DNA of 18,853 nt. It comes from Magnetospirillum sp. (GTDB lineage: Bacteria > Pseudomonadota > Alphaproteobacteria > Rhodospirillales > Magnetospirillaceae). Of the stretch, positions 3,271-18,853 are shown one piece after another. Both the position numbers and the translations under genes were made by a program. Position 1 is the first letter of the stretch. Every line of letters begins with the position of its first letter. Below the pieces are notes generated by a model. That model did no database searches. It was not told where the DNA came from and was given only the letters and a program-made list of their open reading frames with translations. The stretch covers positions 1 to 18,853 of the forward strand of contig JAIWOG010000301.1 in assembly GCA_020217035.1 (NCBI GenBank). Reading direction: 5' to 3'.

Positions 3271-3300
3271 TGATCCAAGGCGATCCTTGCTGCGTAACAA
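3271..3300 (+). promoter_or_regulatory. RpoE/ChrR-type promoter P1 (autoregulatory)
   Basis: TGATCC (3271-3276) is followed by exactly 18 bases and TAACAA (3295-3300). This matches the -35 and -10 arrangement known for the ChrR-controlled RpoE of Rhodobacter sphaeroides (TGATCC with an 18-bp spacer). It drives the unit containing rpoE and chrR, implying positive autoregulation. The same pattern occurs twice more in this window (4771-4800 and, inverted, 13372-13401). Confidence 0.88.
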
Positions 3301-3330
3301 GCAACAACGATCTTGACCCGAGGTGACGAC

Positions 3331-3525: not shown

Positions 3526-3549
3526 CAGGCACCAAGGACGGGGGGCGGG

Positions 3550-4769: not shown

Positions 4770-4770
4770 G

Positions 4771-4800
4771 TGATCCGATTACCGTTGCGCTGCGTACACA
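4771..4800 (+). promoter_or_regulatory. RpoE/ChrR-type promoter P2
   Basis: TGATCC (4771-4776), an 18-base spacer and TACACA (4795-4800) lie between the chrR stop and the DUF6134-like gene. The bases around the -10 (CTGCGTACACAG) resemble those of P1 (CTGCGTAACAAG). The -10 differs from P1 and P3 at its centre, so it may be weaker. It should make the downstream three genes members of the same regulon, in addition to read-through from P1. Confidence 0.8.
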
Positions 4801-4828
4801 GGGGGTGTGACGTCCCTGGAGTGCTTCC

Positions 4829-5431: not shown

Positions 5432-6162
5432 GCCGCCGGGTCTGGATCACCGGCGGCGGATCGGGGATCGGCGCCGCCCTGGCCCGCCGGCTGGCCGCCG
5501 ATGGCGACCGGGTGGTGGTCAGTGGCCGCCGCCCGGCCCCCTTGCAGCAATTGGTCGCCGAGTGTCCGGGGCGGGTCGAGGCCCTGCCGCTGGACGTCGC
5601 CGACCGCGACGGGGTGCAGCGGGCGGTGGAAACCCTGGGGCCGCTGGACATGGCGGTGCTGGCCGCCGGCGACCACCATCCCACCCCCGCCGGCGACTTC
5701 CGGGCCGAGACGGTCCGTCATCTGGTCGAGGTCAACCTGATGGGGGTGGTCCATTGCGTCGAGGCGCTGCTGCCCGCCATGCTGGAGCGCCGCCACGGCC
5801 ATCTGGTGCTGGTCGCCTCGGTGGCGGGCTATCGCGGTCTGCCGACAGCGGCCGGCTATTCCGCCAGCAAGGCAGCGGTCATCGCCCTGGCCGAATCGCT
5901 GCGCCTGGATCTGGCGGACAGCGGAGTGCGGGTCACCCTGGTCAATCCCGGCTTCGTCGACACGCCGCTGACTAGGCGCAACAACTTCCCCATGCCCGAC
6001 ATCATCACCGCCCAGGCCGCCGCCGCCGCCATGGTCAAGGGACTGGAAGGCGACGCCTTCGAAATCGCCTTCCCGCGCCGCTTCGCGTGCCTGATGAAGC
6101 TGCTGCGGCTGTTGCCCGATTCCGTCTATTTCCCCCTGATCCGCAAGGTGACCGGATGCTGA
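5428..6162 (+). CDS. Short-chain dehydrogenase/reductase (SDR)
   Basis: This 244-residue NAD(P)-dependent oxidoreductase of the classical SDR family has the cofactor motif TGGGSGIG at 8-15 and an asparagine at N103. The catalytic S131, Y144 and K148 (YSASK) are correctly spaced, and NPGFVDTPL follows the active site. The arginines in SGRR (32-35) after the second strand favour NADP(H). The C-terminal part (FPRRFACLMKLLRLLPDSVYFPLI) is hydrophobic and typical of SDRs acting near membranes or on lipids. The start at 5428 overlaps the preceding stop; in-frame upstream codons lie inside the DUF6134-like gene. The substrate is unknown. SDRs recur in ChrR regulons, where modified lipid or aldehyde products are plausible substrates. 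Confidence 0.93.
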   Translation: MSRRVWITGGGSGIGAALARRLAADGDRVVVSGRRPAPLQQLVAECPGRVEALPLDVADRDGVQRAVETLGPLDMAVLAAGDHHPTPAGDFRAETVRHLVEVNLMGVVHCVEALLPAMLERRHGHLVLVASVAGYRGLPTAAGYSASKAAVIALAESLRLDLADSGVRVTLVNPGFVDTPLTRRNNFPMPDIITAQAAAAAMVKGLEGDAFEIAFPRRFACLMKLLRLLPDSVYFPLIRKVTGC

Positions 6163-6572
6163 ACCCATGGGCCGATTTCTGGCAGGACCTGACCCCCGAC
6201 AGCGTTGGCCGGGTCAGGGCGTTGTGTGTTCCCGACATCCGTTTCATCGATCCCTTCAACGATCTGATGGGCGTCGAGGCGCTGGAACGCCTGCTGACCC
6301 ACATGTTCGCCACCCTGGAAGCACCGCGCTTCGTCGTCACCGACCGCGCCATGGGCAGCCAGGCCGGTTATTTGCGCTGGGACTTCACCGCATGCCTGCG
6401 CGGGCGCGATGTCAGCTTGACCGGCATGAGCGAGGTGGGCTTCGCCCCCTGTGGCCGCGTCGCCCTGCACCGCGACCATTGGGATGCCGGCGCCCAGGTT
6501 TACGGCCGGGTGCCGGTATTGGGGGCACTGGTGCGGCTGGTCAGCCGGCGCCTGGCGTTGCCCCCGGCTTGA
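6156..6572 (+). CDS. NTF2/SnoaL-like fold protein
   Basis: This 138-residue protein resembles the SnoaL-like/NTF2 superfamily, small cone-shaped domains used as hydrolases, isomerases or binding proteins. Features include the N-terminal MLNPWADFWQDLTPDSVGRV, the RFIDPFNDLMGVEALERLL block after the first strand, and WDF in a central strand. Catalytic residues cannot be assigned. The ATG at 6156 overlaps the SDR gene by seven bases; an upstream in-frame ATG at 6087 lies deep inside the SDR gene and is rejected. The 3' end overlaps the convergent DUF3833 gene by 32 bases. SnoaL-like genes often accompany SDR and Cfa-like genes in ChrR-linked clusters (recalled, not tested here). Confidence 0.85.
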   Translation: MLNPWADFWQDLTPDSVGRVRALCVPDIRFIDPFNDLMGVEALERLLTHMFATLEAPRFVVTDRAMGSQAGYLRWDFTACLRGRDVSLTGMSEVGFAPCGRVALHRDHWDAGAQVYGRVPVLGALVRLVSRRLALPPA

Positions 6573-7089
6573 CGAAGAACAGGGTCACCTGGCCCAGTTC
6601 GATTCCCCACTTGCTGACGCGGGCGCGGTTGATCATCACATGATCCGCCTGCAGGAACATCCAGTCGTCGAAGGCCACCCGCCAAGAACCGTCGCCCACC
6701 TTCAAATCCATGACATAGCGCCAGTTCAGGGCGTTGCCGGCGGATTGCCCTTGGGCGGTGCCGACCACGTCGCCGGCTTGGCCGGCATAGCGCCCGTCGG
6801 CCAGCTTGTCGATGGTCCAGGTGCGGCGCTCGGTCTCGCCGTCGTCATAGCGGAAGAACTCGTCCAGCACCAAGGTGCGGCCGTCCCAGGTGCCGGCGAT
6901 GTCGACGGTGAACTGGCGGCGGACGGTGCCGAAGCGGTCCTCGAACAGGCCATAGGCCTTGGTGCGGCCGGCGAAATAGTCTTCCAGCACCAGGGGGGGC
7001 TGGCCTTGGGCGAAATCGGCGGGTTTCATGGTCGTGCATCCGGTCAGGAACAGCAGGGCGGACAGGGTGACGGCAAGCAAGCGGGTCAT
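6541..7089 (-). CDS. DUF3833 lipoprotein
   Basis: This 182-residue protein has a lipoprotein signal peptide (MTRLLAVTLSALLFLTGC, lipobox LTGC with the lipidated Cys at 18). The mature sequence shows the DUF3833 pattern: LEDYFAGRTKAYGLFEDRFG, then RQFTVDIAGTW, LDEFFRYDDGETERRTW, a WRYVMDLKV strand and a final WGIELGQVTLFF. The fold is probably a lipocalin-like barrel, which would suit binding of a lipid, but this is inference. It is the last gene of the eight-gene minus-strand unit, and its start overlaps the transporter stop (ATGA). Its 3' end overlaps the convergent NTF2-like gene, with no terminator between them. Confidence 0.9.
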   Translation of the reverse strand: MTRLLAVTLSALLFLTGCTTMKPADFAQGQPPLVLEDYFAGRTKAYGLFEDRFGTVRRQFTVDIAGTWDGRTLVLDEFFRYDDGETERRTWTIDKLADGRYAGQAGDVVGTAQGQSAGNALNWRYVMDLKVGDGSWRVAFDDWMFLQADHVMINRARVSKWGIELGQVTLFFVKPGATPGAG

Positions 7090-8372
7090 GGCGAGGTCTC
7101 CGACATCAGGGCGATGCGCCGACGCAATTCCAACTGGCGGGCGTGGTCCAGGGGGAAGCGGCGGATCATCGCCGCCGCCCCCAGCTTCAGCGCCACCGGC
7201 AGGCCGGCATAAAGCAATGGCAAAGCCAGCGGCGCCTGGCCCGATCCGGGGACGAAGCCGGCCATGTCCAGCAACGGAAAGGCCACGCCGACCGACAGTG
7301 CCAGGGCCAGCTTGGCGGCCAGGCTCCACAGCGCCACGTAAAGCCCGGCCTGGGCCTTGCCGCCGGCGGCCTGGTGTTCGTCGGTGACGTCGGCCAGCAT
7401 GGAGGCCGGCAACGCCAGGTCGGCGCCCAGGCCGAAGCCGGTCAGCAGGCAAAGGACGGCGAAGACCGGCCAGTCGCCCGATCCCAGGGCCAAGGCCGGC
7501 AGGAAGGCCAAGGCGGTGAAGGTCAGCGATGCCGCCCAGGCCCGGTGCTTGCCCCAGCGCCGGGCGAGCGCCAGCCACGGCGCCACCGAGATCACGGCGG
7601 CTGACAGGTACAGCACCAACAGCAGGCCGGCCATGTCGGGCCGTCCCAGCCGGTCGCCGACGTAAAGCAGGAACAAGGTGGCGGGCAAGGCATTGGCCAT
7701 GGCGTTGACGCTTTGCGCCGCCAGCAGCCGGTGGAACGGCCGGTTGGCCAGAAGCGGCGCCCAGGTGGTGGAATCGGCCCGGACCACACGCGGCATTTCC
7801 GGCACCACCAGCAGGGCGGCGGCCACCGACAGCGCCAGCAGCAGCATGAAGGGTGGGAACAGCCCGGACAGGGTGTCGCCCTGCTCCCAAGCCAGCAGCG
7901 CCGGCAGGGCGATGGCGGCGACGACGCCGACCAGGGCGAAAGCCTCGCGCCAGCCGGCGATCCTGCTGCGCTGGTGGTAGTCGGCGCTCAGCTCGGTCCC
8001 CCAGGACTGATAGGCGATCAGCGCCAGGGTCAGGCCCAGATGGAACAGCCCGGACCACCAGGCCAGATACAGCGGGCCTGCACCATCGGCGGGAAGGAAC
8101 AGGTGCCAACCCGAAACCGCCAGCAGCGGCAGGCTGGCGGCCAGCCACAGCTTGCGGCGCTGGCGGTGGTGATCGCTGAGATAACCCAGCAAGGGGTCGG
8201 CGAAGGCGTCGAACAGCCGTGCCGCCAAAAGCGCCAGGCCGGTGGCCGCCAGCCCCAGTCCCATCTGTTCGGCGTAGAAGGTGGGCAAATGAACGTGAAC
8301 CGGGATTCCCAAAGCCGCCAACGGCAAGGCCGGCAGGCCGTAGGCGGCCAGATGGCGGCGATCGGGGATCAT
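7086..8372 (-). CDS. MFS transporter, GPH (sodium:galactoside symporter-like) family
   Basis: This 428-residue polytopic inner-membrane protein has about twelve hydrophobic segments. The loop after helix 2, FDAFADPLLGYLSDHHRQRR (residues 54-73), carries the D-x3-D-x7-D pattern (D55, D59, D67) typical of the glycoside-pentoside-hexuronide family. That family label says little about substrate here, because its neighbours act on lipids and oxidants. Related transporters occur in ChrR regulons and in Cfa/FAD-oxidase clusters, so lipid or cofactor movement is a reasonable guess. The start at 8372 overlaps the Cfa stop (ATGA). The reading frame stays open far upstream, but that part is the antisense of cfa. 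Confidence 0.92.
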   Translation of the reverse strand: MIPDRRHLAAYGLPALPLAALGIPVHVHLPTFYAEQMGLGLAATGLALLAARLFDAFADPLLGYLSDHHRQRRKLWLAASLPLLAVSGWHLFLPADGAGPLYLAWWSGLFHLGLTLALIAYQSWGTELSADYHQRSRIAGWREAFALVGVVAAIALPALLAWEQGDTLSGLFPPFMLLLALSVAAALLVVPEMPRVVRADSTTWAPLLANRPFHRLLAAQSVNAMANALPATLFLLYVGDRLGRPDMAGLLLVLYLSAAVISVAPWLALARRWGKHRAWAASLTFTALAFLPALALGSGDWPVFAVLCLLTGFGLGADLALPASMLADVTDEHQAAGGKAQAGLYVALWSLAAKLALALSVGVAFPLLDMAGFVPGSGQAPLALPLLYAGLPVALKLGAAAMIRRFPLDHARQLELRRRIALMSETSP

Positions 8373-9586
8373 GACCGTTGCAGCACCAGATGGCGCACGT
8401 CGATGGCCCCGGTGCGGAACCCGGCCCGGCAATAGGCCATGTAGAATTCCCACAGGCGGCGGAAGCGGGTGTCGAAGCCCAAGGGTTGCAGGCCGGGCCA
8501 GGCTTCCACGAAGGACTGGTGCCACAGCGCCAGGGTGCGGTCGTAATCGGCGCCGAAGCAGCGGGTTGTCGACAGGTTCAGCCCAGCCTGACGGGCTTGG
8601 CGCTCCAACGCCCCCGGGCTGGGCAGCATGCCGCCGGGGAAGACGTGGCGCTGAATGAAGTCGCAGCCGGCGCGATAGGCTTCGAAGCGGTCGTCGGCGA
8701 TGGTGATGGCCTGCAACCCAGCCTTGCCGCCCGGCTTCAGGCGGTCGTGCAGGGTGGCGAAATAGGTCGGCCACCAGCGTTCGCCCACCGCCTCGATCAT
8801 CTCGATCGAGACGACGCGGTCGAACTGGCCCTGGACGTCGCGGTAATCCTGCAAGCGGATCTCGACCTTGTCGGCCAACCCGGAATCGGCCATGCGCTGG
8901 CTGGCCCAGCCATGTTGTTCCCGCGACAGGGTCAGGCCGACCACCTGGGCGCCGTAATCGCGGGCGGCGATCTCGGCGAAGCCGCCCCAGCCGCAGCCGA
9001 TCTCCAGCACCCGCATGCCCGGCCGCAAGCCGATGTCGTCGGCCAGCGCCCGGTACTTGCGGGTTTGCGCTGCTTCCAGGCTGTCGTCCCGGCCGTTGAA
9101 CAGGGCCGAGGAATAGGTCATGCCCCGATCCAGCCACGGCGCGTAGAAAGCGTTGCCCAGGTCGTAATGGGCGGCGATGTTGCGCCGGCTGCCGGATTTG
9201 GAATTGTCGCGGCGTCGGTGCCACAGGCGCAGGCCCAGGCGCACCAGCGGATGGCCGTCCAGCGCCTGGCCGTGGGCCCGGTCGTTGAGGTCGCCCAGTT
9301 CCAACAGCGCGGTCAGGTCGGGGCTTTCCCAGTCGCCGTCCATGAAGGCTTCGCCCAATCCCACGGCGCCGCCGCTCAGCAGGCGGCGCACCATGCGCGG
9401 GCGGACCACCCTGAGCGCGGCCTGCGGCCCCGGCTCGGCGCCGTCCAGGCGGTGCGTGCGCCCGGACGGCAGGGTCAGGTCCAGCCGACCATGGCGCAGA
9501 CGCTGGCGCAGCAGGGCCAGCATGACCGTTTCGGACAATCGGGCGGAACCGGTCAACACCGGCAGCAGCAGGGCTTGGGCCGTCAT
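8369..9586 (-). CDS. Cfa-like SAM-dependent fatty acyl methyltransferase
   Basis: This 405-residue protein belongs to the cyclopropane fatty acid synthase superfamily, which methylates double bonds of unsaturated phospholipid acyl chains. Landmarks are the N-terminal lipid-binding domain (about 1-130), HYDLGNAFYAPWLD (140-153), the SAM loop VLEIGCGWGGFAEIAA (193-208), SIEMIEAVGERWWPTYF (260-276) and DFIQRHVFPGGMLPS (309-323). Compared with E. coli Cfa, the bicarbonate ligands C139 and H266 align by eye with S160 and Q292, while the glutamate is kept as E265. That fits methyltransferases making branched or methylene products, such as those of methylated or furan fatty acid pathways, rather than a true cyclopropane synthase. 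It overlaps the DUF1365 gene upstream and the transporter gene downstream by four bases each. Product specificity is inference. Confidence 0.94.
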   Translation of the reverse strand: MTAQALLLPVLTGSARLSETVMLALLRQRLRHGRLDLTLPSGRTHRLDGAEPGPQAALRVVRPRMVRRLLSGGAVGLGEAFMDGDWESPDLTALLELGDLNDRAHGQALDGHPLVRLGLRLWHRRRDNSKSGSRRNIAAHYDLGNAFYAPWLDRGMTYSSALFNGRDDSLEAAQTRKYRALADDIGLRPGMRVLEIGCGWGGFAEIAARDYGAQVVGLTLSREQHGWASQRMADSGLADKVEIRLQDYRDVQGQFDRVVSIEMIEAVGERWWPTYFATLHDRLKPGGKAGLQAITIADDRFEAYRAGCDFIQRHVFPGGMLPSPGALERQARQAGLNLSTTRCFGADYDRTLALWHQSFVEAWPGLQPLGFDTRFRRLWEFYMAYCRAGFRTGAIDVRHLVLQRS

Positions 9587-10368
9587 CGTGCATTCCCTTG
9601 TTGGCAGACGGAAACGGGGGTGGCGGGCGGTTCGGGCTTGTGGAAGAAGGGCGCCCCCTTGATCCACAAGCGCAACGCCTCGTAATGGATGCCGCCGACG
9701 ATCTTGACCGGCAGCAGCGGATAACGCAGGGCGGCGGCCAGCAGGGCGCCATCGGTCAACTCGCGCCGCCGCCCCACGTGGCTGGCCACCAGGATGGTGC
9801 GGCCGTCCTCGGCGGCGGTCTCGCGGATGGTCTGGGCGAAGCGCTCGCCCGGCGGCTTGACGGCGAAGCGGTAGGTGCCGCCCAGGCCGATGAAGGGCGA
9901 GACGTGGAAGCATTTCTCGGCCTGGTGGGTCAGGGTGCGGCCGCCATCGTCGCCGTCGACCGCCACCAGATAGCCGTGGCGTTCGCCGAAGGTGTTGTGG
10001 ACCTCGTACAGGATGGCGGCCAGGGCGCCGTCGGCACGGTGGCAGAACCAGGTGGTCAGCGGGGTGAAGCCCATGCCCAGGACCCGCGGGAACAGATGCA
10101 CCCGCACCGGCCCGTCGGCGTGGATGCCGTGGGCGGCCAGTTGGCGGCCGATCCACGCCTTGGGATCGCCGCCGTCGCCCAGGTCGCGGTCGTGGACCGA
10201 GAACAAATTGGCGCGGTTGCGGGACAGCAGGCGCAGTCCCAGGTCGGCCGCCTCGTCCAAATCCACCAGCAACGACATCACGTCATAGGTGAAGCGATGC
10301 CCCACCGGGTCGAGGCGGTGGTGCATGACCTGACCGCGATACAGGCAGGACGCGGCCATGGCGGTCAT
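9583..10368 (-). CDS. DUF1365 protein
   Basis: This 261-residue protein of the DUF1365 family is a conserved companion of Cfa-like methyltransferases and FAD amine oxidases in many bacteria. Characteristic stretches are LYRGQVMHHRLDPVGHRFTYDVMSLLVDLDE near the N-terminus, FTPLTTWFCHRADG, YEVHNTFGERHGYLV and HVSPFIGLGGTYRF, followed by a hydrophobic C-terminal segment (LPVKIVGGIHYEALRLWIKG). No catalytic site is known. The conserved His and Tyr residues and the invariable context suggest a role in making or handling the modified acyl product. I chose the ATG at 10368 because it overlaps the stop of the FAD gene (ATGA); an in-frame ATG at 10359 is also possible. Confidence 0.93.
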   Translation of the reverse strand: MTAMAASCLYRGQVMHHRLDPVGHRFTYDVMSLLVDLDEAADLGLRLLSRNRANLFSVHDRDLGDGGDPKAWIGRQLAAHGIHADGPVRVHLFPRVLGMGFTPLTTWFCHRADGALAAILYEVHNTFGERHGYLVAVDGDDGGRTLTHQAEKCFHVSPFIGLGGTYRFAVKPPGERFAQTIRETAAEDGRTILVASHVGRRRELTDGALLAAALRYPLLPVKIVGGIHYEALRLWIKGAPFFHKPEPPATPVSVCQQGNAR

Positions 10369-11663
10369 TCCGCCGCCATGGCTTGCGGGCAGCCCATGGA
10401 CTCGGCCACCGCCAAGCCCGAACTGAAGGCGTCCTCGTGGAAGCCATAGCCGAAATAAGAACCGCAGAACCAGGTGCGGTTGACGCCTTGCAAGGACGGC
10501 AGGCGCTTTTGCGCGTTCATGGCGGCGCCGTCGAAAACCGGGTGGTGATAGGTGATCTGGCGGTGGACCAGGGCCGGGTCCGGTTGGGTGATCGGGTTCA
10601 AGGTGACGAACAGCGGCAGGTCGGCGGGCAGGTTCTGAAGGCGGTTCATCCAATAGGTGACGCACAATTGGCGGGCGCCGTCGTCGCCGCCCTTGCCCAG
10701 ATAGTTCCACGCCGCCCACACCCGCCGGCGTTGGGGCATCAGCGCCTTGTCGGAATGCAGCACCGCCAGGTTCTCCTGATAGCCGAAGGCCCCCAGCACC
10801 GCCTGTTCTTGCGGCGACGGGTCGGCCAGCAGGGAAAGGGCCTCGTCGGCGTGGGCGCCGATGACCACGTCGTCGAATATCTGCGAACCGCGGGCGGTGG
10901 TCACCACCACGCCGTCGGGGCGGCGGGTGACGGCCCGCACCCCTTCGTTCAGGCGGATGGGGCCGGTCAGTTGGGCGGTGATGCGGCTGACATATTCGCG
11001 GCTGCCGCCGCTGACCGTGCGCCAGCGCGGCCGGTCGGTCAACTGCAACAGGCCGTGATTGGCGCAAAAGCGCACGAAACTGGCGGCGGGGAAGGCCAGC
11101 ATGGTGGAACTGGGCGCCGACCAGATGGCGGCGGCCATGGGCAGCAGGTGGTCGTCGACGAAGGCTTGCCCATAGCCGCCCCGGCGCAGGTATTGGCCCA
11201 GGCTGAGATCGGGGTCGGGATCGTCCAACAGGCGCGGCGCCTCACGGTAGAAACGCAGGATGTCGGCCACCATGCCCCAGAAACGCGGGCGGACCAGGTT
11301 GCGGTACTGGCCGAACAGGCCGGCCAGGTCGCCGCCGGAATATTCCATCCGGCCGCCATCCAGGGACACCGCGAAGGACATGTCGGTGGCCTGGGTGGGC
11401 ACCTGCAATTGGTCGAACATGCGGATCAGGTTAGGATAATTACGTTCGTTGTAGACGATGAAGCCGGTGTCCACCGCCACCACGCCGCCATCGGGGCGGT
11501 GCACCTCGACGGTGTTGGCGTGGCCGCCCAGATGGGCGTTCTTCTCGAAGATGGTCACCTGGTGGTGGCGGCTCAGCCTCCAGGCGGCGCCCAGGGCGGC
11601 GGCGCCGCTGCCGATGACGGCGATGCGGCGGCGACCGGGGCGCAAGGGGGAGATGTGGGTCAT
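10365..11663 (-). CDS. FAD-dependent amine-oxidase-type oxidoreductase
   Basis: This 432-residue flavoprotein is of the NAD(P)-binding Rossmann/amine oxidase class, which includes desaturases and cyclases of lipids. The dinucleotide fold is at the N-terminus (RRIAVIGSGAAALGAAWRL), with an acidic ribose ligand in VTIFEKNAHLGGHANT. The usual GxGxxG reads GSGAAA, so the third Gly is Ala. A C-terminal FAD block is WFCGSYFGYGFHEDAFSSG. It is always seen beside DUF1365 and Cfa-like genes in this cluster type. In R. sphaeroides, oxidative steps on methylated acyl chains are part of furan fatty acid synthesis, which makes a desaturase-like role plausible. The start at 11663 lies 28 bases after folE with AGGA nearby. 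Confidence 0.94.
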   Translation of the reverse strand: MTHISPLRPGRRRIAVIGSGAAALGAAWRLSRHHQVTIFEKNAHLGGHANTVEVHRPDGGVVAVDTGFIVYNERNYPNLIRMFDQLQVPTQATDMSFAVSLDGGRMEYSGGDLAGLFGQYRNLVRPRFWGMVADILRFYREAPRLLDDPDPDLSLGQYLRRGGYGQAFVDDHLLPMAAAIWSAPSSTMLAFPAASFVRFCANHGLLQLTDRPRWRTVSGGSREYVSRITAQLTGPIRLNEGVRAVTRRPDGVVVTTARGSQIFDDVVIGAHADEALSLLADPSPQEQAVLGAFGYQENLAVLHSDKALMPQRRRVWAAWNYLGKGGDDGARQLCVTYWMNRLQNLPADLPLFVTLNPITQPDPALVHRQITYHHPVFDGAAMNAQKRLPSLQGVNRTWFCGSYFGYGFHEDAFSSGLAVAESMGCPQAMAAE

Positions 11664-11691
11664 GATGAGTTCCTGGAGGCGGCTGCGGGGA

Positions 11692-12303
11692 TCAGCGGAT
11701 CAGCGACATGAATTCCTTGCGCGTCGTCGGGTCGTCGCGGAACACGCCCAGCATGCGGCTGGTCACCATGGTGACACCGGGCTTGTGGACACCGCGGGTG
11801 GTCATGCATTGGTGGGCGGCCTCGACGATCACCGCGACACCTTTGGGCTGCAACACCTCGTTGATGGTGTTGGCGACCTGAGCGGTCAACTTTTCCTGGA
11901 TCTGCAGGCGCTTGGCGAAGACTTCGACGACGCGGGCCAACTTGCTGATGCCCACCACCCGGCGATCGGGCAGATAGGCGACGTGACACTTGCCGACGAT
12001 GGGCACCATGTGGTGCTCGCAATGGCTTTCCAAGGTGATGTCGCGCAGGATCACCATTTCGTCGTAGCCGTCGGTTTCCTCGAAGGTGCGGGCCAGCATT
12101 TCGACCGGATCCTGGTCGTAGCCGGCGAAGAATTCCTCGTACGACCGCACCACCCGGTCCGGCGTGCCCAGCAGCCCCTCGCGGTCGGGGTCGTCGCCGG
12201 CCCAGCGGATCAGGGTGCGCACGGCCAGTTCGGCCTCGGTGCGGCTGGGACGGCCGGAAATCTGGCAAGCGGCGGGCACGATAATGCCGGGGGTGGCGTT
12301 CAT
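11692..12303 (-). CDS. folE: GTP cyclohydrolase I
   Basis: This 203-residue enzyme converts GTP to 7,8-dihydroneopterin triphosphate, the first step of folate and pterin synthesis. Zinc ligands of type I enzymes are present: C95 and H98 in [10 protein letters not shown] and C166 in HQCMTTRG. The substrate and allosteric blocks [19 protein letters not shown] and [11 protein letters not shown] are intact. Length and start ([10 protein letters not shown], with GGAGAA five bases upstream of the ATG) are normal. It lies inside the stress operon between DUF3429 and the FAD oxidoreductase. A second, housekeeping folE elsewhere is therefore likely, and this copy may supply pterin or folate chromophore (for example for photolyases) under oxidative stress. 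That last point is inference. Confidence 0.96.
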
Positions 12304-12326
12304 GGGCGTTCTCCGGTGGGGGGATT

Positions 12327-12782
12327 TCAGAAGATGACGGGAAGGCTGGCGGCCAGGCTGGCGCAGACCACCAGGGTCAGGCGGTCGCGCATGTGGCCGT
12401 ACCAATCGGGCAGCAGGCCGGCTTGAACGGCGCGGCGGTCGCCGTACCAGGCCAGGACGAAGCCAAGGATCAGCAGCGGCATGGTCCAGGTAATCGGCAG
12501 CAAGGTGGCGAACCAGCCCAGCAACGACGGGGTCACCGCCCAGATCAGCCACAGGCTGCCCAGCGGATCCTCGGCCGGGGCGGTGATGACGCGCCCCCAA
12601 TGCACGGCGCCGATGAAGGACAAGATGGTGGCGGCGTAGATGGCGGTGGCGTCCAGCGCGTGGGCGCGCAATTCGGGAAACGGCGGCCAGGTCAGCAAGA
12701 TGCCGGCGACGAAGGGGATCAACCCCAGATAGGACAGGGCACGGGCGGTGCCGTCGCCGTGACGCAGCGAGAAGTCGTGCAT
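12327..12782 (-). CDS. DUF3429 membrane protein
   Basis: This 151-residue inner-membrane protein has four to five predicted helices, among them [30 protein letters not shown] and [12 protein letters not shown]. The segments SYLGLIPF and [12 protein letters not shown] are the hallmark of DUF3429, whose function is unknown. It begins three bases after the glutathione peroxidase stop and ends 23 bases before the folE start codon, so it is firmly inside the operon. Its membrane location next to a periplasmic peroxidase and lipid-modifying enzymes suggests a membrane-protection role, but the sequence shows no active site. Confidence 0.9.
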
Positions 12783-12785
12783 GGC

Positions 12786-13352
12786 TTATTTCTCCGCCAA
12801 GGCTTGGTCGATGGCGTGGCGCAAGCGGGTCGCGTCGGGACCGGTGGTGCTGGCGAACCAGTCCACCAGCCGGCCGTCGCGGCCGATCAGCAATTTGTGG
12901 AAGTTCCAGCGCGGCACCCCGACGGCGCCGGTCTGGGCGGCGGCCCAGCGATAAAGCGGATGCGCCGCTTCGCCGGTCACCGCCTGCTTTTCCAAAAGCG
13001 GGAAGTCGACGCCGTAATTGACCTGGCAGAACTCCTGAACCTGGGCGTTGCTGCCCGGCTCCTGGGCACCGAAATCGTTGGACGGCACCCCCAGCACCAC
13101 CAGGCCGCGCGGCTGGTATTCCCGCCACAACGCCTGCAATCCCTGATATTGGCCGGTGAAGCCGCAGCGCGAGGCGGTGTTGACCACCAGCACCACGTGG
13201 CCCAGGAACAGGTCGGCGGAATGCGTGCCGCCGTCGATGGCGGGCAGGGGCAGGACCCGCCAGTCCAACCGGGCCGCGTCGGCCTGGGCCGCCGGCGTCA
13301 GGGACAAAAGGGCCGCCACGGCACCGATCACGGTTTTCAGCATTTGCGGCAT
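12786..13352 (-). CDS. Periplasmic glutathione peroxidase (Cys type)
   Basis: This 188-residue peroxidase of the GPx family reduces hydroperoxides, including lipid hydroperoxides. The catalytic set is the peroxidatic C63 ([13 protein letters not shown]), Q98 (FGAQEPG), W149 and N150 ([11 protein letters not shown]). C109 in [14 protein letters not shown] is a good candidate resolving Cys, as in thioredoxin-dependent GPx enzymes. A signal peptide (cleavage near residue 24, after PAAQA) predicts a periplasmic location. It is the first gene of the eight-gene unit; ATG at 13352 has AGGAG seven bases upstream and lies 19 bases past the -10 of promoter P3. Peroxidase at the head of a singlet-oxygen operon fits removal of lipid peroxides. 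Confidence 0.95.
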
Positions 13353-13371
13353 GTCGTTTCTCCTTTGCCCC

Positions 13372-13401
13372 TTGTTACGGCGCCTGGGAAGAAACGGATC
13401 A
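13372..13401 (-). promoter_or_regulatory. RpoE/ChrR-type promoter P3
   Basis: On the minus strand TGATCC (13401-13396) is separated by exactly 18 bases from TAACAA (13377-13372), identical in both hexamers and spacing to promoter P1. The expected transcription start is near 13365, giving a very short leader before the peroxidase ATG. It should control all eight genes down to the DUF3833 lipoprotein. Confidence 0.88.
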
Positions 13402-13472
13402 CTGGACCATGTGGATTTTTCCTCTGGTCGCAGGGGAGAGGCATGCCAACGCCTTTGTGTGGCCCTGAGGGA

Positions 13473-13584
13473 GGTCGCGTCCCCCCGAGATTGTGGCCGC
13501 CTGGGGATGACGTCTCCGGGCGCTACGCGCCCTACGTCGTCATCCCCAGGCAAACACAGCTACACCACTCGGGGGGAAGTGACC
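13473..13584. repeat. Nested three-tier palindrome (REP/MITE-like element)
   Basis: Three inverted repeats share one centre. The inner hairpin is GGGCGC-TAC-GCGCCC (13518-13532). The middle arms are a perfect 14 bp (13499-13512 and 13538-13551, GCCTGGGGATGACG and its complement). The outer arms are CCCCCCGAG (13481-13489) and CTCGGGGGG (13568-13576), extended imperfectly to 13473 and 13584. The CGTCATCCCC core resembles dispersed intergenic palindromes seen in many proteobacteria. It sits between two divergent transcription units. Confidence 0.75.
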
Positions 13585-13652
13585 ATATCGGGGGCGGGCG
13601 GGGCATGACGTGCATTTTGTCCAGCAGCGATCACGCTCTCGCGCATAGGTCT

Positions 13653-13678
13653 AAATTCCTTGAATTTCTCTCTATAGA
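13653..13678 (+). promoter_or_regulatory. Putative promoter/operator of the effector gene
   Basis: AAATTC-CTT-GAATTT (13653-13667) is a perfect 6-bp inverted repeat in an AT-rich patch, followed by TATAGA (13673-13678), a possible -10. No good -35 is visible at the usual distance, which is common for activated or repressed promoters. The palindrome would overlap the polymerase site and could bind a dimeric regulator. Confidence 0.35.
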
Positions 13679-13701
13679 TGTGTATCTTGCGAATCATGCA
13701 C

Positions 13702-13723
13702 GGGTGGCCCTTCGGGGCCGCCC
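13702..13723 (+). promoter_or_regulatory. Leader hairpin with UUCG loop before the effector gene
   Basis: GGGTGGCCC and GGGCCGCCC pair over nine positions (one G-U in RNA) around a TTCG loop closed by C-G, an especially stable tetraloop. It ends 28 bases before the ATG at 13752 and is followed by only three Ts. It may act as an attenuator or a 5' stabiliser, or be a terminator-like relic. Confidence 0.5.
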
Positions 13724-13751
13724 CTTTCTCGACCCGCGGAAAGAACAAAAC

Positions 13752-15452
13752 ATGACCATTTTGCCGATCTATCCCCGCCAACGCCGTCCCGGCTTTCCGT
13801 TCCAGGATGATTTCTTCACCCTGGGCGCACCCGTCGGCCCCGATCAGCCCAACCGGCGCGAAGACGTGATCCGGGTGGAAACCATTCTGGGCAATACCGG
13901 CCACCATGATCTTTCGCGTACCGACGGCCCGGTGGGCTATTGGGGCCAGCGTCAGGAACAGGCGGTGAAGGATTGGCAAAGCCAGAACGGGCTGAAGGTG
14001 GATGGTCTGTTGAAACCGGGCGGCCCCACCATCACCAGCCTGAAACAGGCGGCGGGCGGCCTGTTGGGCGGTTTCACACCCCCCAGCCCGGACGAGGTGG
14101 ACCAGCACCAATCGCAACGCATGCAGGGCGAGCCGGGCATCCTGAACACCCGCCCGGCGCGGCTGTCCTTCCCCCGGCCCGAGCAGCCCTTGGACTTGGA
14201 CGAGCAAAGCCAGGCATTCAACGCCGACAGCGCCCGCGCTTTGACCCGCAGCAGCGTCAACGGCGACATCCCGCGCATCTATGGCGATTTCGCCAAACAG
14301 GCGGGGCCGGACGCGCACGCCACCTTGATGGATCTGGCCGAACAGATGGACGCGCAGGTCGGGCGCGACCGCACCGACCAAGTGATGCACGGCATCGTCA
14401 GCCAGCTTCCGCCCGATCAGGCCAAGGCTTTGCTGGGCGGCACCATGCCCGCCGTCCGCCCCTTGGGCGTGCGTAGCGCCGATCTGCCCGACGACAGCGC
14501 CGTGCCGTTGTTCCGGGCGGCGGCTGCCGCACCGGCGGGCAATCCGCCGTCATCGCCGAGTGAAAGTGGACCTGCGAAGGCAGAACCGGAAACTCCGCCC
14601 ACGCCCACGCCCACGCCCACGTCTCCGGCACCGACGACGGAAGCGCCACCGCCGCCGTCCCAGCCCTCGGCCCCCGCGTCGCCGGTCGATGCAAAGCCCG
14701 AGCAGACTACCGGGGCGCCGCGACCGCAAACCGATACCGAGCAATTGTTCGGGATGCCTTTGCCAAATGACGAAGATGTCCGTCAGCAGACGCGCCAAAC
14801 CCTGGAAAATGCCAGTGGGCTCGGCAAATTTTTCGGCCAAGACAAGGCCGCCGCCCTGCTGGATCACTATCTTGACGGCGATGGCTCGCCGGTCACCTTG
14901 GACAAAGAGTGGGTGCGTGGCCATGAACCGGTCAAGCAGGCGGAGCAACGAGTCCAGGGGCATTTCGAGAACTGGCTGACAGGCAAGGGCCCTGCGGACC
15001 GCACGCTTAACTCTATCGCCGATCATATTCCCAAGGACGGTGAGACCCGTGAGATCAATGGCTTGACGTGGCAAGCTGTCGCTGACAGTAACCCAGCAAA
15101 AGTCTGGGACGAACGCAACAACGCCCTGGGGGCGGTGACCGTCAACGGAATTGGCAATTTGAAACTGGAACGCCAGGGTGACGAGGTAATCATCACCGGC
15201 ACCGTTCAACAAAATGCCACGGACAGATATGATTTCGGGAAGGGGAGAAAAGGTGCGGATGGTTGGCTGCCGCAAGGCATTGCAGGCGGCAATCCTGGTT
15301 TGCGCCGCCAGGATATCGTCGCCTTGGAAGAACGTGGTCAGGTTAAGCCGTTTGATATCCAAAGCGATAGCTGGGAAAAGCAAGTGGTCGGGCGTTTGCA
15401 ATTGGATGCCCAGGGGCGCATTATCGGTTCGCAATTCGAGTGGCGGGAGTGA
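13752..15452 (+). CDS. Peptidoglycan-binding-domain protein with colicin-M-like C-terminal motif
   Basis: This 566-residue protein appears modular. Residues about 37-100 resemble a peptidoglycan-binding domain (EDVIRVETILGNTG, then YWGQRQEQAVKDWQSQNGLK and VDGLLKPGGPT). A helical region (about 145-230) follows, then a linker rich in Pro, Ala and Thr (about 255-325) and a distinct C-terminal part (about 330-566). There, GNLKLERQGDEVIITG precedes DRYDF (491-495), resembling the G-x-L...G-x-V...DxYDF block around D226, Y228 and D229 of colicin M. The His-Arg pair that follows in colicin M is not conserved (GKGRK here), so lipid-II phosphodiesterase activity is only a hypothesis. No signal peptide is visible. 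GGAAAG at 13738-13743 is the ribosome site. A membrane-anchored ORF follows 23 bases later, as an immunity gene would. Confidence 0.85.
   Translation: MTILPIYPRQRRPGFPFQDDFFTLGAPVGPDQPNRREDVIRVETILGNTGHHDLSRTDGPVGYWGQRQEQAVKDWQSQNGLKVDGLLKPGGPTITSLKQAAGGLLGGFTPPSPDEVDQHQSQRMQGEPGILNTRPARLSFPRPEQPLDLDEQSQAFNADSARALTRSSVNGDIPRIYGDFAKQAGPDAHATLMDLAEQMDAQVGRDRTDQVMHGIVSQLPPDQAKALLGGTMPAVRPLGVRSADLPDDSAVPLFRAAAAAPAGNPPSSPSESGPAKAEPETPPTPTPTPTSPAPTTEAPPPPSQPSAPASPVDAKPEQTTGAPRPQTDTEQLFGMPLPNDEDVRQQTRQTLENASGLGKFFGQDKAAALLDHYLDGDGSPVTLDKEWVRGHEPVKQAEQRVQGHFENWLTGKGPADRTLNSIADHIPKDGETREINGLTWQAVADSNPAKVWDERNNALGAVTVNGIGNLKLERQGDEVIITGTVQQNATDRYDFGKGRKGADGWLPQGIAGGNPGLRRQDIVALEERGQVKPFDIQSDSWEKQVVGRLQLDAQGRIIGSQFEWRE
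14598..14621 (+). repeat. Hexanucleotide repeat encoding Pro-Thr linker
   Basis: CCCACG is repeated four times in tandem inside the linker of the 566-residue protein, encoding alternating Pro and Thr. The unit length keeps the frame, so slippage would change linker length without disrupting the gene. Confidence 0.85.
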
Positions 15453-15475
15453 TGGCTACACGTTAGGATTGCCCG

Positions 15476-16087
15476 ATGAAACGCCCGCGCCGTCTTACTC
15501 TTATCCTGCTGCTCGCGGCTCTGCTGGTTCCTGCCGGCGTGGCTTGGTTGGCTTGGTACAATTGGAACATCCGTAACACTTGGGTGCGCTTGTACCCGGT
15601 CTGTCGCGATGGTGGGTCATATCTCGATCTGGTCGAGCCGATGACGCCCCAGGCCAACCAGATGTTCATGGAATGGGCGACGATGACCTCGCCGCATCAT
15701 CGGGCGGACTTTGCGGCCAAGGTCACCGGATATATTCGCGCCAAGGATGGGAAGGTCTTTGCCCAGCTGTGGTACCAGACATTGGCGGGAATGGAGAACC
15801 GCCAGTTGCTCTGGTACATGAGTAGCGATTTGGCTAAGGTGTTGGGGCGGCCCGCCCCTATTATCTGGGGCAATTGCCGAGATTTTGTGGACATGGCCAC
15901 CATCTCGCGGCGGCAGGATTATGTGTACCGTAACCGTCTATCGGAAAACGCCGAAGCGTTTTGGACCTTCCTGTCCTTTGGTGTCGATCGCGAACGTTTT
16001 GGCGAATACAGCTGGGTCGGAAAATTGTTGTTGCCCTATGCCATCGATCCGGTGCTTGAGGATAATGAACCGCCGTTGCCCCGGTGA
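15476..16087 (+). CDS. Membrane-anchored protein of unknown function, candidate immunity protein
   Basis: This 203-residue protein has positively charged residues (MKRPRR) then one hydrophobic helix (LTLILLLAALLVPAGVAWLAW, about 7-27). This predicts an N-terminal anchor with the remainder in the periplasm. The soluble part is rich in aromatic residues and has two Cys (VCRDGG and GNCRDF). I do not recognise a family. AGGA at 15465-15468 is well spaced from the ATG. It starts 23 bases after the colicin-M-like gene. The known colicin M immunity protein is also a periplasmic domain on one N-terminal helix, though much shorter. Immunity function is inferred from position and topology only; an accessory envelope factor is equally possible. 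Confidence 0.75.
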   Translation: MKRPRRLTLILLLAALLVPAGVAWLAWYNWNIRNTWVRLYPVCRDGGSYLDLVEPMTPQANQMFMEWATMTSPHHRADFAAKVTGYIRAKDGKVFAQLWYQTLAGMENRQLLWYMSSDLAKVLGRPAPIIWGNCRDFVDMATISRRQDYVYRNRLSENAEAFWTFLSFGVDRERFGEYSWVGKLLLPYAIDPVLEDNEPPLPR

Positions 16088-16174
16088 TTGTCCCGGTCTG
16101 AGAGCGCGGTCATTCTTTTCAAAGTGCGCCAACAGGATGCAAACTCCAAATCCTCATTACCTATGAGGCATCTG

Positions 16175-16359
16175 ATGGCTCCCCACTGGCGAATTGCCGC
16201 CATTTCTCCGTTGCTCGCTCTCCTCTTGCCGGCCTCAGCTTTGGCCGAGCCGAACTGCGACACAAATCAATTCACCTCAGTTGCCGCAGCCTTCCAGAAG
16301 GGGGGGGTGTCCGGGGGAAAGGGGGGCGGGCTTATTTCCATAATGGAGGTGATGGCTGG
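16175..16359 (+). pseudogene. Signal-peptide half of a frameshifted lysozyme-like gene
   Basis: ATG at 16175, with GAGG at 16165-16168, begins a good Sec signal peptide (APHWRIAAISPLLALLLPAS, then ALA, with EPNCDTN following). The frame continues through FTSVAAAFQKGG into G-rich sequence and then gives unlikely protein, ending at 16480. The lysozyme-like domain continues in a different frame, and that frame is open across the same region (AYFHNGGDGWVRDH just after the G runs). One extra G in the eight-G run would join the two. This could be a genuine mutation, a phase-variable switch or a sequencing error; an in-frame ATG at 16163 is an alternative start. Confidence 0.65.
16300..16326 (+). 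repeat. Cluster of G homopolymer runs at the frameshift
   Basis: Runs of eight (16300-16307), five (16313-16317) and six (16321-16326) Gs lie within 27 bases, exactly where the signal peptide and catalytic parts of the lysozyme-like gene go out of frame. Such runs are prone to polymerase slippage. Confidence 0.9.
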
Positions 16360-16941
16360 GTGCGCGACCATGCGACCACGATCAAGGTTACGGCTCGTCG
16401 TCACGGTATTCCGCCCGAAGTATTGGCCGGCATTGTTCATACCGAAACGGGTGGAATGCCTGATGTCATGGACGACATAGGAAACGTCGTTCGCTCGGGT
16501 TCCAGTAAACTTCCTGATACGATTCGATCTCAGATTGATCAGCGTCTCGTGGGCGACCCGTCAAATATTAGTGCCGGGGATGTGTCCATCCAACTTCGGC
16601 ATGTTGCCAGGTTGGAAGGCCTTGATCCCGATAAGATGACCATGACAGACCGCGCCAATCTCATTGATCGCCTGCAAAGCGACAAGGCCTATGCACTTGA
16701 CATGGCTGCGCGTTATGCGAAGCAAACATTGCAGCAAGCCTATCCCGGCTATAAGGGGGGGCCGCTGAATGATCGCCAAGTCATGACATTAGGGTACGGC
16801 TATAACATGGGCTATCCCAATGCAGCGATTGACCCTGAAAATCCCAATCCGGCTGGCATCGATTTGAAGGGGGGCAAAAAATCCAGTTATGGTCCCGACC
16901 TTCAACGCAAGTTGCAGCGTATGCGTGAGCTTCTGAAATAG
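16360..16941 (+). CDS. Lysozyme/lytic-transglycosylase-like catalytic region
   Basis: This 193-residue reading frame starts at GTG 16360, but it is probably the C-terminal part of a longer secreted enzyme. HGIPPEVLAGIVHTETGG (15-32) resembles the active-site segment of SLT and phage-type lysozymes, with E29 as candidate catalytic acid. LNDRQVMTLGYGYNMGYPN near residues 137-155 looks like a second wall-binding segment. I could not place it in a named glycoside hydrolase family. The expected substrate is peptidoglycan. No convincing ribosome site precedes the GTG, which supports the frameshift reading. The stop codon lies inside the ribosome site of the next gene, so the two are coupled. The last 30 or so codons are duplicated downstream at 17271-17369. 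Confidence 0.75.
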   Translation: MRDHATTIKVTARRHGIPPEVLAGIVHTETGGMPDVMDDIGNVVRSGSSKLPDTIRSQIDQRLVGDPSNISAGDVSIQLRHVARLEGLDPDKMTMTDRANLIDRLQSDKAYALDMAARYAKQTLQQAYPGYKGGPLNDRQVMTLGYGYNMGYPNAAIDPENPNPAGIDLKGGKKSSYGPDLQRKLQRMRELLK

Positions 16942-17004
16942 GAGGGCCAAATGCGGCGTTTGTGGATATGGTTTCTGTCAGTTTGGGGGATTGGCCATTG
17001 GCTG
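16843..17004 (+). repeat. Direct repeat, copy A (lysozyme 3' end plus membrane-gene 5' end)
   Basis: These 162 bases recur 428 bases downstream with about nine differences counted by eye. The copy spans the last 30 or so codons of the lysozyme-like gene, its ribosome-site region and the first codons of the membrane protein gene. Confidence 0.92.
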
Positions 17005-17265
17005 CTGGCTTATACGTGTATCGACGTGATCCCATCTGAATTAGGTGAGTGCCGCGATGGATGGGCGGCCGGCATATTTGCTTTGCTGTTCATCAGTATG
17101 TTGCTGGGGGGAGTCGGAGGGTTGTTTGTCCCAGGCAGGCGTTGGCTGTTTGCTGCCGTGTTCACACTTCCACTCATAGTCGTCGTCAGTTATGGGCGCT
17201 ATGAGGAAAATCGTGCTTTTCCAGAGACTTCTGGTCCAGGTAGTCGCGCATACGCATGCCCCTGA
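16951..17265 (+). CDS. Small three-helix membrane protein, candidate immunity protein
   Basis: This 104-residue protein has three hydrophobic stretches (about 4-22, 41-60 and 66-82) separated by a short loop with two Cys (C23, C34) and a basic turn (PGRRW). I recognise no family. AGGAGG at 16940-16945 is a strong ribosome site and overlaps the lysozyme stop. The tight coupling to a wall-degrading enzyme and the presence of a duplicated, divergent copy fit an immunity protein for a periplasm-acting toxin. A holin in a lysis cassette is the main alternative, and the duplication with a toxin fragment favours the immunity reading. Confidence 0.78.
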   Translation: MRRLWIWFLSVWGIGHWLLAYTCIDVIPSELGECRDGWAAGIFALLFISMLLGGVGGLFVPGRRWLFAAVFTLPLIVVVSYGRYEENRAFPETSGPGSRAYACP

Positions 17266-17270
17266 AAAGC

Positions 17271-17369
17271 CCCAATCCGGTTGGCATCGATTTGAAGGGG
17301 GGCAAAAAATCCAGTTATGGTCCCGACCTTCAACGCAAGTTGCAGCGTATGCGTGAGCTTCTGGAATAG
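17271..17369 (+). pseudogene. Orphan C-terminal fragment of the lysozyme-like gene
   Basis: This piece encodes PNPVGIDLKGGKKSSYGP and then DLQRKLQRMRELLE plus a stop, nearly identical to the end of the full gene. It lacks any start and catalytic part. It begins directly after the stop of the first membrane-protein gene and precedes the second copy, the layout expected from cassette duplication. It is the first part of repeat copy B (17271-17432). Confidence 0.88.
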
Positions 17370-17378
17370 GGGGGCCAA

Positions 17379-17693
17379 ATGCGGCGTTTGTGGATATGGT
17401 TTCTGTCCGTCTGGGTGATCGCTCATTGGCTGGCAGCATCCATTTTTTTGGATATTTAAATATCATCACTTGGGCAATGTCGAGATGATGGGCCTGCAGG
17501 CATGTTGGGGGTGTTGCTGATCAGCATGTTGTTTGGGGGGGCTGGGGGGCTATTCGTTCGTGGGCGGCGTGTTGTGTTTGCATCATTGTTTTTTGTGCCC
17601 GTCATAATCTTCATCAGCTTCACGAGCTATATGGGCAACAAAATCACCCCAGAGGCACATGATCCTGGTCGTCGGGAACTCTCGTGCCCTTGA
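17379..17693 (+). pseudogene. Second membrane-protein copy with an in-frame stop codon
   Basis: From ATG 17379 the frame matches the upstream 104-residue membrane protein codon for codon with no insertion or deletion, ending at a TGA at the same codon (105). Conserved stretches include MRRLWIWFLSVW, LISML and GGLFV near the second helix, and the ending in CP. A single TAA at 17457-17459 replaces codon 27. A restart at ATG 17502 would give a 63-residue protein with the last two helices. The remainder is divergent from copy one while the reading frame is kept, suggesting it diverged under selection before being broken. It is most likely a recent nonsense pseudogene. Confidence 0.82.
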
Positions 17694-18197
17694 GGGAGAG
17701 TGATGCGCATCCAGTTATGCCCGAATGGCCTCTTGGCGTGAAAGCTCCGTCACTCGAATTCTCATGGCTATAGATAGGACCGATCCGAGAAAGAGCCCGG
17801 TCCTGTTGGAATTATGATTTCAGGCGCTGAAGATAATCAGGTGGGCATGTGTTTCCCGCCAATTTTTTGATTTCACAGAGGAAATTCTGTCTGCCAGAAG
17901 ACGATCCCGTCCCGCATAAAGCTAGCCCTGTCTCAGCTAAAGGTGTGAAATCTCACCTAAAGCCAGAACCGACAGTGTCGGTTTCAGGCCTGAAGCGGAC
18001 TGAATGATTGGGCTGTCGATCCTGTTACTCACTATGGGCCGAACTACGGACTTTCCTTAAGACGCATGGATCGAGGTTTACGTATTTTAGGCCGGACAGA
18101 TTTTCTACGGCAGGTCAATGCGAACCGCCGGTAATATGGGCGCGATTTCCAAATGCATGTAACTCGGCCCTGACACGTGTTCTATGGCAGCGCGCAA
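17694..18197. other. Non-coding stretch with palindromes, no gene seen
   Basis: No reading frame here has a credible start, ribosome site and composition. Visible structure includes an inverted repeat AGGACCG/CGGTCCT (17776-17804, loop of 15, no T-run) and TTCAG-GCG-CTGAA near 17820. A group of palindromes lies at 17941-17994. The motif ATCCAGTTATG at 17709 echoes the lysozyme 3' repeat and may be a decayed third copy. Confidence 0.6.
17941..17994. repeat. Three adjacent palindromes
   Basis: AGGTGTGA-AA-TCTCACCT (17941-17958, one mismatch) is followed by AACCGACA-G-TGTCGGTT (17967-17983, perfect) and TTCAGGCCTGAA (17983-17994, perfect, sharing one base with the second). They could be operators or a recombination or replication-related site; no adjoining gene explains them. 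Confidence 0.7.
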
Positions 18198-18762
18198 CTA
18201 ATGAGATGGCGCCAAAGCGAGCGCAGGTTCACCCGTGAACGGGAGAAACAAGTGTGCGACGCGAATTGTGCCGTGTGCAGGGGCGAGACACTCGGGGCGA
18301 CGGTGCTCCGTATCGAAATGAGCTGCGTTTGGAAACATATCGGACGGCAGCTGTAACCAGGCCCCGTTGCCACACTGACACATATTTAGAGCCACTGTGT
18401 TCCCCAAAGTCTGAAGAGTATCAAGCAAAGGTCCGACGATGTCAGTTTCGGGCGCCACAAGTATGCCGACCATTACCGCCACAGCCTCACGGCGACTGTA
18501 AGACCCTGTGACGAACCGCTGGAGCCCATTTTCTCCAATATAATGGGCGCGAGACCTGGACGAGGCATTTAGTTTCTTGAATTCGAAGACAAGGCACATG
18601 CTTCGCTTGTCGTCGTTCCAAGCATAAATAATATCCGTCCGCCTTTCTTCGGTTATTTCGCCGGTCTCGAAATCAACTTCATTCTCTACGCCTTCCGCCC
18701 CCCAGTAACCCAAGAGGCCGTACCTGCGTGCGGTAACTCGCTGAACATAACTACGTAGGACC
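18198..18762 (-). pseudogene. PD-(D/E)xK nuclease-like protein, 5'-truncated by an IS
   Basis: The frame reads from the window's right side to a TAG at 18198. Visible motifs are TDIIYAW followed by LVFEFKK: an aspartate, a hydrophobic strand and ExK, the core of PD-(D/E)xK nucleases (D49, E66, K68 when counted from the TTG at 18779). A Gln-containing helix (GLQRF) and the strand AVMVGILVA follow. The ending FDTEHRR, then VAHLFLPF, looks like a natural C-terminus. The first five or six codons of the open frame lie within insertion-sequence DNA, so the true N-terminus is missing. A restriction or other DNA-defence role is possible but unproven. Composition is lower in GC than the window's left half. 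Confidence 0.7.
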
Positions 18763-18853
18763 TGACCTGTTCCCCGCAAATGTCCCCACTCTGAGGTAGA
18801 GTCCGTTCCATCAGGGAGACGGACTAATGAAGCGCAGCAGGTTCACGGAAGAG
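18763..18853 (+). mobile_element. IS3-family insertion sequence, left end (partial)
   Basis: TGACCTGTTCCCCGC at 18763 looks like the terminal inverted repeat of IS3-family elements. It is followed by a short leader and the start of a transposase orfA, and the element runs off the window. It interrupts the nuclease-like gene. The exact end and any target-site duplication cannot be verified without the right end. Confidence 0.75.
18827..18853 (+). CDS. IS3-family transposase orfA, N-terminal fragment
   Basis: Only nine codons are visible, reading MKRSRFTEE. This is the very characteristic start of orfA proteins (helix-turn-helix DNA-binding subunit) in IS3-family elements. GGGAGA at 18813-18818 is a suitable ribosome site. 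The rest lies beyond the window. Confidence 0.8.

Follow-up and report, generated by a model that had tools for sequence, protein, structure and literature searches.

A Divergent Colicin M-Like Tip on an Exchangeable PG_binding_1-Type Module: A Probable Effector and Immunity Pair in Magnetospirillum

Gene Organization and Domain Architecture

The window examined here (the whole stretch of 18,853 nucleotides that was analyzed) comes from a Magnetospirillum sp. assembly (GCA_020217035.1, contig JAIWOG010000301.1, positions 1 to 18,853), and it carries two adjacent genes that probably encode a polymorphic effector and its immunity protein. All features described lie on the forward (+) strand. The first gene (13752..15452) is an open frame for a protein of 566 amino acids (aa), called P0001, and the second (15476..16087) encodes a protein of 203 aa. 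The stop of the effector gene is separated by 23 bases from the start of the second open reading frame (ORF). Both frames and the gap had been given in a preliminary description made from the sequence alone, and they are present as reported there. Upstream of the effector gene, at 13492–13558, there is an imperfect inverted repeat with 32-nt arms that are 78% complementary and a 3-nt loop.

The effector consists of three parts. The N-terminal part (N-part) comprises residues 1 to about 258–259 (13752..14530), and DNA homology to most fetched loci with other tips ends near residue 258. A Pro-rich linker of about residues 260–325 (14531..14738) is apparent in the translation, and the C-terminal tip comprises residues 330–566 (14739..15449). 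Using Pfam, we identified PG_binding_1 (PF01471) at residues 36–86 (E 4e-6; score 27.4 bits, cut-off 23), the sole Pfam family above cut-off in P0001. The peptidoglycan-binding-like domain and the low-complexity linker proposed earlier are thus both in place. No signal peptide is visible, again in line with the earlier proposal, the N-terminus having been judged by eye alone and no predictor used. A metagenome-assembled genome of Magnetospirillum sp. encodes a 565-aa relative that is 91% identical across the whole of P0001.

Structure and Homology of the Tip

Two AlphaFold models of the tip were obtained, with predicted local distance difference test scores (pLDDT) of 83.9 and 87.1. When both models were compared by VIA-align, entries of the colicin M (ColM) family were in the lead (11 entries from five proteins), with low TM-scores. 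Foldseek with the better (second) model placed syringacin M first (probability 0.99, E 1.5e-3). For profile comparison, the colicin M reference was the pSMS35_130 sequence aligned with five plasmid relatives. The 16-sequence tip alignment scored 34.7 against it by hhalign (P 3.2e-4), and none of 400 column shuffles reached this value (mean 13.7, standard deviation 2.4, maximum 24.2). Further controls with the reversed tip, the reversed ColM alignment and the N-part family scored 20.7, 19.7 and 16.7, respectively. A more divergent ten-sequence tip alignment, for which no shuffles were made, scored 32.0. The extended alignment is collinear along the domain, and it pairs HYLDGDG (14865..14885) and DRYDF (15222..15236) of the tip with HYLWGNG and DKYDF (D226-x-Y228-D229-F) of colicin M.

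Other results differ. The best 50 rows listed by Foldseek for the first model contain no ColM entry, the Pfam model PF14859 did not match any of eight tip-family members at E≤5, and the second half of the ColM catalytic motif is missing, as described below. The structural likeness to colicin M that had been anticipated therefore held in VIA-align for both models and in Foldseek for the second one, but not for the first; at the profile level, it held in hhalign and not in the PF14859 search. Pfam and NCBIfam gave no useful family for the tip, and a search of its profile against PDB sequences returned two unconvincing matches (E 0.22 and 0.4). A library of viral structures gave no match to the tip at E≤0.001. 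PF14859 matched nothing in 398 sampled genomes of the phylum, a survey that is uninformative because the controls were equally silent.

Together, fold prediction and profile comparison show the tip to be a predicted remote homologue of colicin M that has its fold and its core motifs, HYLxGxG and DxYD. It is a divergent ColM-like branch. We do not file it as a canonical member of the family because the His-Arg half of DXYDX5HR is missing.

The Putative Catalytic Motif

The motif region of the tip reads L-G, a spaced G-x-L and a further G, followed by DRYDF. The spacings from L to G (9) and from G to G (8) are the same as in colicin M. Across 16 aligned sequences, the L, G and G of HYLDGDG and both aspartates of D-x-Y-D are invariant, and the tyrosine is nearly so. 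The pattern [DE]-x-[YF]-D-[FYW] is present in 21 of 22 tips, with D as the first residue in 20. This conservation, along with the ColM profile score above all 400 shuffles, indicates that the motif is more than chance, and the catalytic-strand likeness noted in the preliminary description is borne out.

The ColM catalytic motif is given as DXYDX5HR in the available part of PMC5821083. Not one of 21 tips has His-Arg at +6/+7 of the DxYD motif in a table read by eye, and the absence first seen in the window is real. The tip of P0016 has His-Arg directly behind the motif. Four positions ahead of the motif, all seven close tips have Gln, and 12 of the 14 distant tips have His; our guess is that this residue stands in for the lost histidine. 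The surroundings also differ from ColM in an insertion with LPQG after DRYDF and in an extra C-terminal strand in the model.

The missing His-Arg raises the alternative that the ColM fold was kept while phosphatase activity was lost, harm then being done through binding to lipid II or the membrane. According to the part of PMC5821083 that is available, other ColM domains with degenerate motifs have been reported, and a pectocin M1 mutant lyses cells without degrading lipid II. Set against this, the two invariant aspartates and the presence of D-x-[YF]-D in 20 of 22 tips suggest selection on catalysis, and we regard a loss of activity as rather unlikely.

A Shared N-Part with Exchangeable Tips

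The preliminary description had likened P0001 to modular effectors. This proved apt, as many different tips, that of P0001 among them, occur on this N-part or its relatives; the sharing of the N-part as a module had been missed. A second protein in the same genome is 88% identical to residues 1–299 of P0001 and divergent beyond. A relative of the N-part occurs at E≤1e-3 in 18 of the 55 genomes examined from the family, its own among them, and 13 of these reach E≤1e-12. The N-part is 95–97% identical at five other places and 58–71% identical at further ones. We fetched 12 loci that have other tips and a long N-part match. Homology to the DNA of the window ends at 14514–14538 in nine of them, and in the remaining three it ends earlier (14031–14349), these being broken, shortened or otherwise spliced. 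A protein search with a ten-protein N-part alignment, limited to the 8000 best candidates, returned 40 proteins at E≤1e-6, including P0003, P0004 and P0005, which bear the window's tip, and a probable outsider, P0054. In P0020, the N-part and linker (residues 1–358 of P0001) are kept at 86% identity and the tip is different. The N-part thus recurs in other genomes, 58–97% identical, joined to exchangeable tips, and it is probably a trafficking or delivery module. A recurring N-part with variable C-terminal tips is the arrangement of polymorphic toxins, which also have adjacent immunity genes and orphan modules.

We searched 20 of the proteins with Pfam, ten of them also with NCBIfam, and could name the tips of five, four being of wall-enzyme type. 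The named tips are GH108 plus PG_binding_3 (L040), YkuD (L058, in which the Tlde1 model stays under its cut-off), DUF6973 (L056) and BPSL0067 (L019 and L030), a family of amidase type. For P0027, the listing gives M23. The combination of GH108 and PG_binding_3 also occurs in endolysins. The other 15 tips matched no nameable family in these searches, so the predominance of wall enzymes is limited to the nameable tips.

It could also be that the ColM-fold tip is a hydrolase of another lipid-linked substrate, for example undecaprenyl pyrophosphate or an O-antigen carrier intermediate. The motif surroundings unlike those of ColM, with the LPQG insertion and the Gln or His four residues before the motif, would agree with this. 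What speaks against it is that peptidoglycan-enzyme types make up most of the nameable tips on this N-part and its relatives, and we consider a different substrate improbable.

Other features of these loci were noted. The N-part matches at L049, L051 and L054 are frame-split or interrupted by stops and are probably broken effector genes. At L046 (G027:C180), the effector is followed by a 262-aa ORF and then by an apparent similar second copy, seen in overlapping frames only. Seven effector genes at L041, L050, L055, L058 and L064 have a third-position GC content of 0.68–0.76, compared with 0.8–0.95 in many, though not all, of their neighbors, which fits horizontal gain.

The Downstream Partner

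The 203-aa protein has one hydrophobic segment at residues 7–25 by a hydropathy script, which corresponds to the single N-terminal helix described before. The tip is followed by a homologue of this protein in seven of seven close loci (the window, L043, L044, L062, L063, L064 and L065), with identities down to 29–33%; the match at L065 spans 98 residues only. The count covers close tips with fetched DNA, and P0004–P0007 and P0009–P0011 have close tips with unfetched DNA. Left out were L067 (a 43-residue Streptomyces match), L066 (tip just 25% identical, with a different next gene) and L060 and L061 (duplicates of L044 and L043). Seven aligned partners, including a paralogue in the same genome and excluding L043, all have Cys43 and Cys134. 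This paralogue, 86% identical to the 203-aa gene, lies on contig C48, where an effector with a different tip precedes it by about 0.6 kb.

In all, 14 downstream proteins, that of the window included, were scored with the same script. At least one membrane-like segment was found in 10 of them; the set excludes L043, L044 and L063 (close homologues), L066 and a doubtful 92-aa ORF of L087. A single N-terminal segment is present downstream of the tip in the window, L062, L064, L081, L082 and L091. A signal-like segment is present in L089, and several segments are present in L084, L088 and L090. At the starts used, the proteins of L065, L080, L083 and L086 have none. No ORF was found after the tip at L085. 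At L066, the ORF at about 2967–3593 after the distant ColM-like tip looks by eye like the DUF6973 tip of L056 and may be an orphan module.

ColM immunity proteins are described as single-anchored or polytopic, some with two conserved cysteines, in the available part of PMC5821083. The membrane segments of the partners and this likeness agree with toxin action on the periplasmic side of the inner membrane. A homologous partner gene thus lies beside the tip, and the partner has an N-terminal membrane-like segment. On the strength of its homologues, hydropathy and two invariant cysteines, the 203-aa protein is likely the immunity protein of the tip, and the toxin and immunity pairing proposed earlier is upheld at the level of sequence.

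Proposed Mechanism

We consider it probable that the two genes form an effector and immunity pair of the polymorphic antibacterial toxin class, the ColM-like tip attacking a lipid-linked wall precursor. The effector would reach the periplasm of a rival Gram-negative cell, where its peptidoglycan-binding domain may help keep it near the wall. The tip would then attack lipid II, or a similar precursor linked to undecaprenyl pyrophosphate, on the outer side of the inner membrane, and wall synthesis would stop. The Asp pair of D-x-Y-D would do the chemistry, with another residue, possibly the Gln or His four before the motif, replacing the lost His-Arg. In the producer, the 203-aa protein would be anchored in the inner membrane and extend a domain, possibly with a disulfide, into the periplasm, and it would bind and block the tip. 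If so, lipid II-directed toxins extend to the Alphaproteobacteria, and the family is a natural experiment on which ColM residues catalysis requires.

Distribution and Delivery

Of 385 genomes sampled from the class, 11 (own genome counted) carry the tip family at E≤1e-3, and these fall in 11 of 277 genera. In L080, L081 and L083, peptidoglycan-binding-like repeats lie ahead of the tip, as judged by eye only. A search of 50,697 phage records gave no match to the tip at E≤1e-3, and 72,556 plasmid records gave a single weak match, from Nonomuraea.

Delivery was surveyed with one marker per system, VipB for the type VI secretion system (T6SS) and VirB4 for the type IV secretion system (T4SS); many of the assemblies are drafts. 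Among the 13 strong N-part carriers (E≤1e-12), VipB was found in two (G023 and G028), VirB4 in four (G023, G025, G028 and G041) and neither in nine. For all 18 carriers at E≤1e-3, the numbers are two, five and 13, respectively. The own genome yielded neither marker, and 10 of the other 12 strong carriers gave no VipB match. Models of phage sheaths match 4 of 10 N-part carriers in the genus and one of three others. The T6SS, the T4SS and, within the genus, a phage-type sheath were accordingly set aside as the delivery route, as their markers do not track the N-part. Given draft assemblies and one marker per system, marker absence argues against these routes without excluding them or others.

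Pfam found no secretion parts among ten neighbor genes from four loci (47 genes were predicted at five loci). These genes encode an M24 peptidase, SfsA, a histidine kinase, Sel1 repeats, a TonB-dependent receptor, a periplasmic binding protein and two proteins of dimethyl sulfoxide-reductase type; two are without a family. At L055, the TonB-dependent receptor gene (9323–11359) adjoins the effector. The DUF4157 tag, which is typical of cargo of extracellular contractile injection systems (eCIS), was not found in P0001, where Pfam above cut-off shows PG_binding_1 alone. A relative of the tip in P0015 (393 aa) is located behind DUF4157 (PF13699), which suggests ColM-like cargo of another delivery system.

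That P0001 is an ordinary effector of a T6SS, T4SS or eCIS, its PG_binding_1 part being incidental, would be in keeping with P0015, with the resemblance of BtpeA to the tip, and with the ColM-like T6SS effectors of the DUF3289 type described in the available part of PMC11148199. The lack of both VipB and VirB4 in 9 of 13 strong carriers, own genome included, and sheath models in 4 of 10 carriers in the genus make this quite unlikely. A housekeeping or phage-type peptidoglycan-binding hydrolase that serves lysis or remodelling and has no connection to the gene downstream is very improbable: relatives are annotated as peptidoglycan-binding protein and endolysins share GH108 plus PG_binding_3, but tips swap on a recurring N-part, the partner travels with the tip, orphan modules are present and the phage records searched gave no match to the tip at E≤1e-3.

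Beyond the effector and immunity pair itself, we tentatively propose that the N-part may mark an unrecognized, T6SS- and T4SS-independent delivery route for chiefly wall-targeting antibacterial effectors in Magnetospirillaceae and other Alphaproteobacteria, whose ColM-like tips might be another ColM branch, one able to hydrolyze lipid-linked precursors without His-Arg. If this is true, magnetotactic bacteria own a weapon system without a recognized secretion machine.

Relation to Known Systems

The predicted fold and the collinear HYLxGxG and DxYD motifs are shared with the ColM family (PF14859: colicin M, pectocins M1 and M2, PaeM, syringacin M), as is a membrane-anchored partner. Two conserved cysteines are found in the immunity proteins BmiB and PmiB (available part of PMC5821083), as in the 203-aa family. 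The window's tip differs in having no His-Arg, no Pfam match, an insertion after DxYD and an extra C-terminal strand, and the effector differs in that its tip sits on a PG_binding_1 N-part and is alphaproteobacterial.

ColM-type effectors beyond bacteriocins are already known. DUF3289 is a T6SS-linked ColM homologue with DUF943 as its immunity protein (available part of PMC11148199), likewise a ColM-type wall toxin with a separate immunity gene. Most N-part carriers, in contrast, are without VipB. The one DUF3289 protein compared has HFYHGNG in place of HYLDGDG. As the nearest relative, DUF3289 was rejected, its profile score of 15.6 (P 0.2, one sequence only) not being significant. The C-terminal domain of BtpeA from Bacteroides fragilis (PDB ID: 9jdi), a T6SS effector according to the entry title, resembles the tip in structure at 10% identity; a literature search by this name returned only unrelated papers. 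TelC, a lipid II phosphatase of the type VII secretion system and the lipocone superfamily, has lipid II as its reported substrate and acts outside the cytoplasm (available part of PMC12419801). Its fold differs from that of ColM (available part of PMC5821083). TelC is not among the VIA-align rows listed for either tip model, which does not exclude a lipocone fold.

Like the classical polymorphic toxins (contact-dependent inhibition (CDI) systems, Rhs and MafB), the window's system has a recurring N-part, variable tips, adjacent immunity and orphan modules; its N-part, unlike theirs, shows PG_binding_1 alone in Pfam. Peptidoglycan-binding domains are named as possible adhesion aids in polymorphic toxins in PMC3482391, the available text of which does not mention Magnetospirillum. 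Literature searches for such combinations returned no paper describing them, the looser search being judged on the title and the start of the abstract. New here are the divergent ColM-like branch in Alphaproteobacteria, the exchangeable PG_binding_1 N-part and carriers without the usual injection-machine markers.

Remnants Downstream of the Pair

Recombination debris from this system, overlooked before, lies downstream. The segment at 16123..16358 is a 5′ remnant of a gene that follows GH108-tipped effectors elsewhere. It matches 237 bases of L040 and L041 at 97% DNA identity, and in both of these an intact 241-aa ORF comes after the GH108 effector. The remnant runs into an orphan tip module without an N-part (16351..16941), whose 196-aa match to the C-terminus of P0020 is 96.4% identical. 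The orphan tip has no Pfam family; it contains VHTETGG and looks lytic-enzyme-like by eye only. After it lies a 104-aa ORF (16951..17265), hydrophobic by eye, which is possibly the immunity gene of the orphan tip. This ORF has no Pfam family over cut-off, and the loci searched yielded no homologue at E≤1e-3. Next comes a 167-nt direct repeat of 16838–17004 at 93% identity (17266..17432), which partially duplicates the end of the orphan tip and the beginning of the gene behind it. The remnant, the orphan tip, the repeat and the C48 paralogue, which occurs without the window's tip, are marks of a polymorphic toxin locus.
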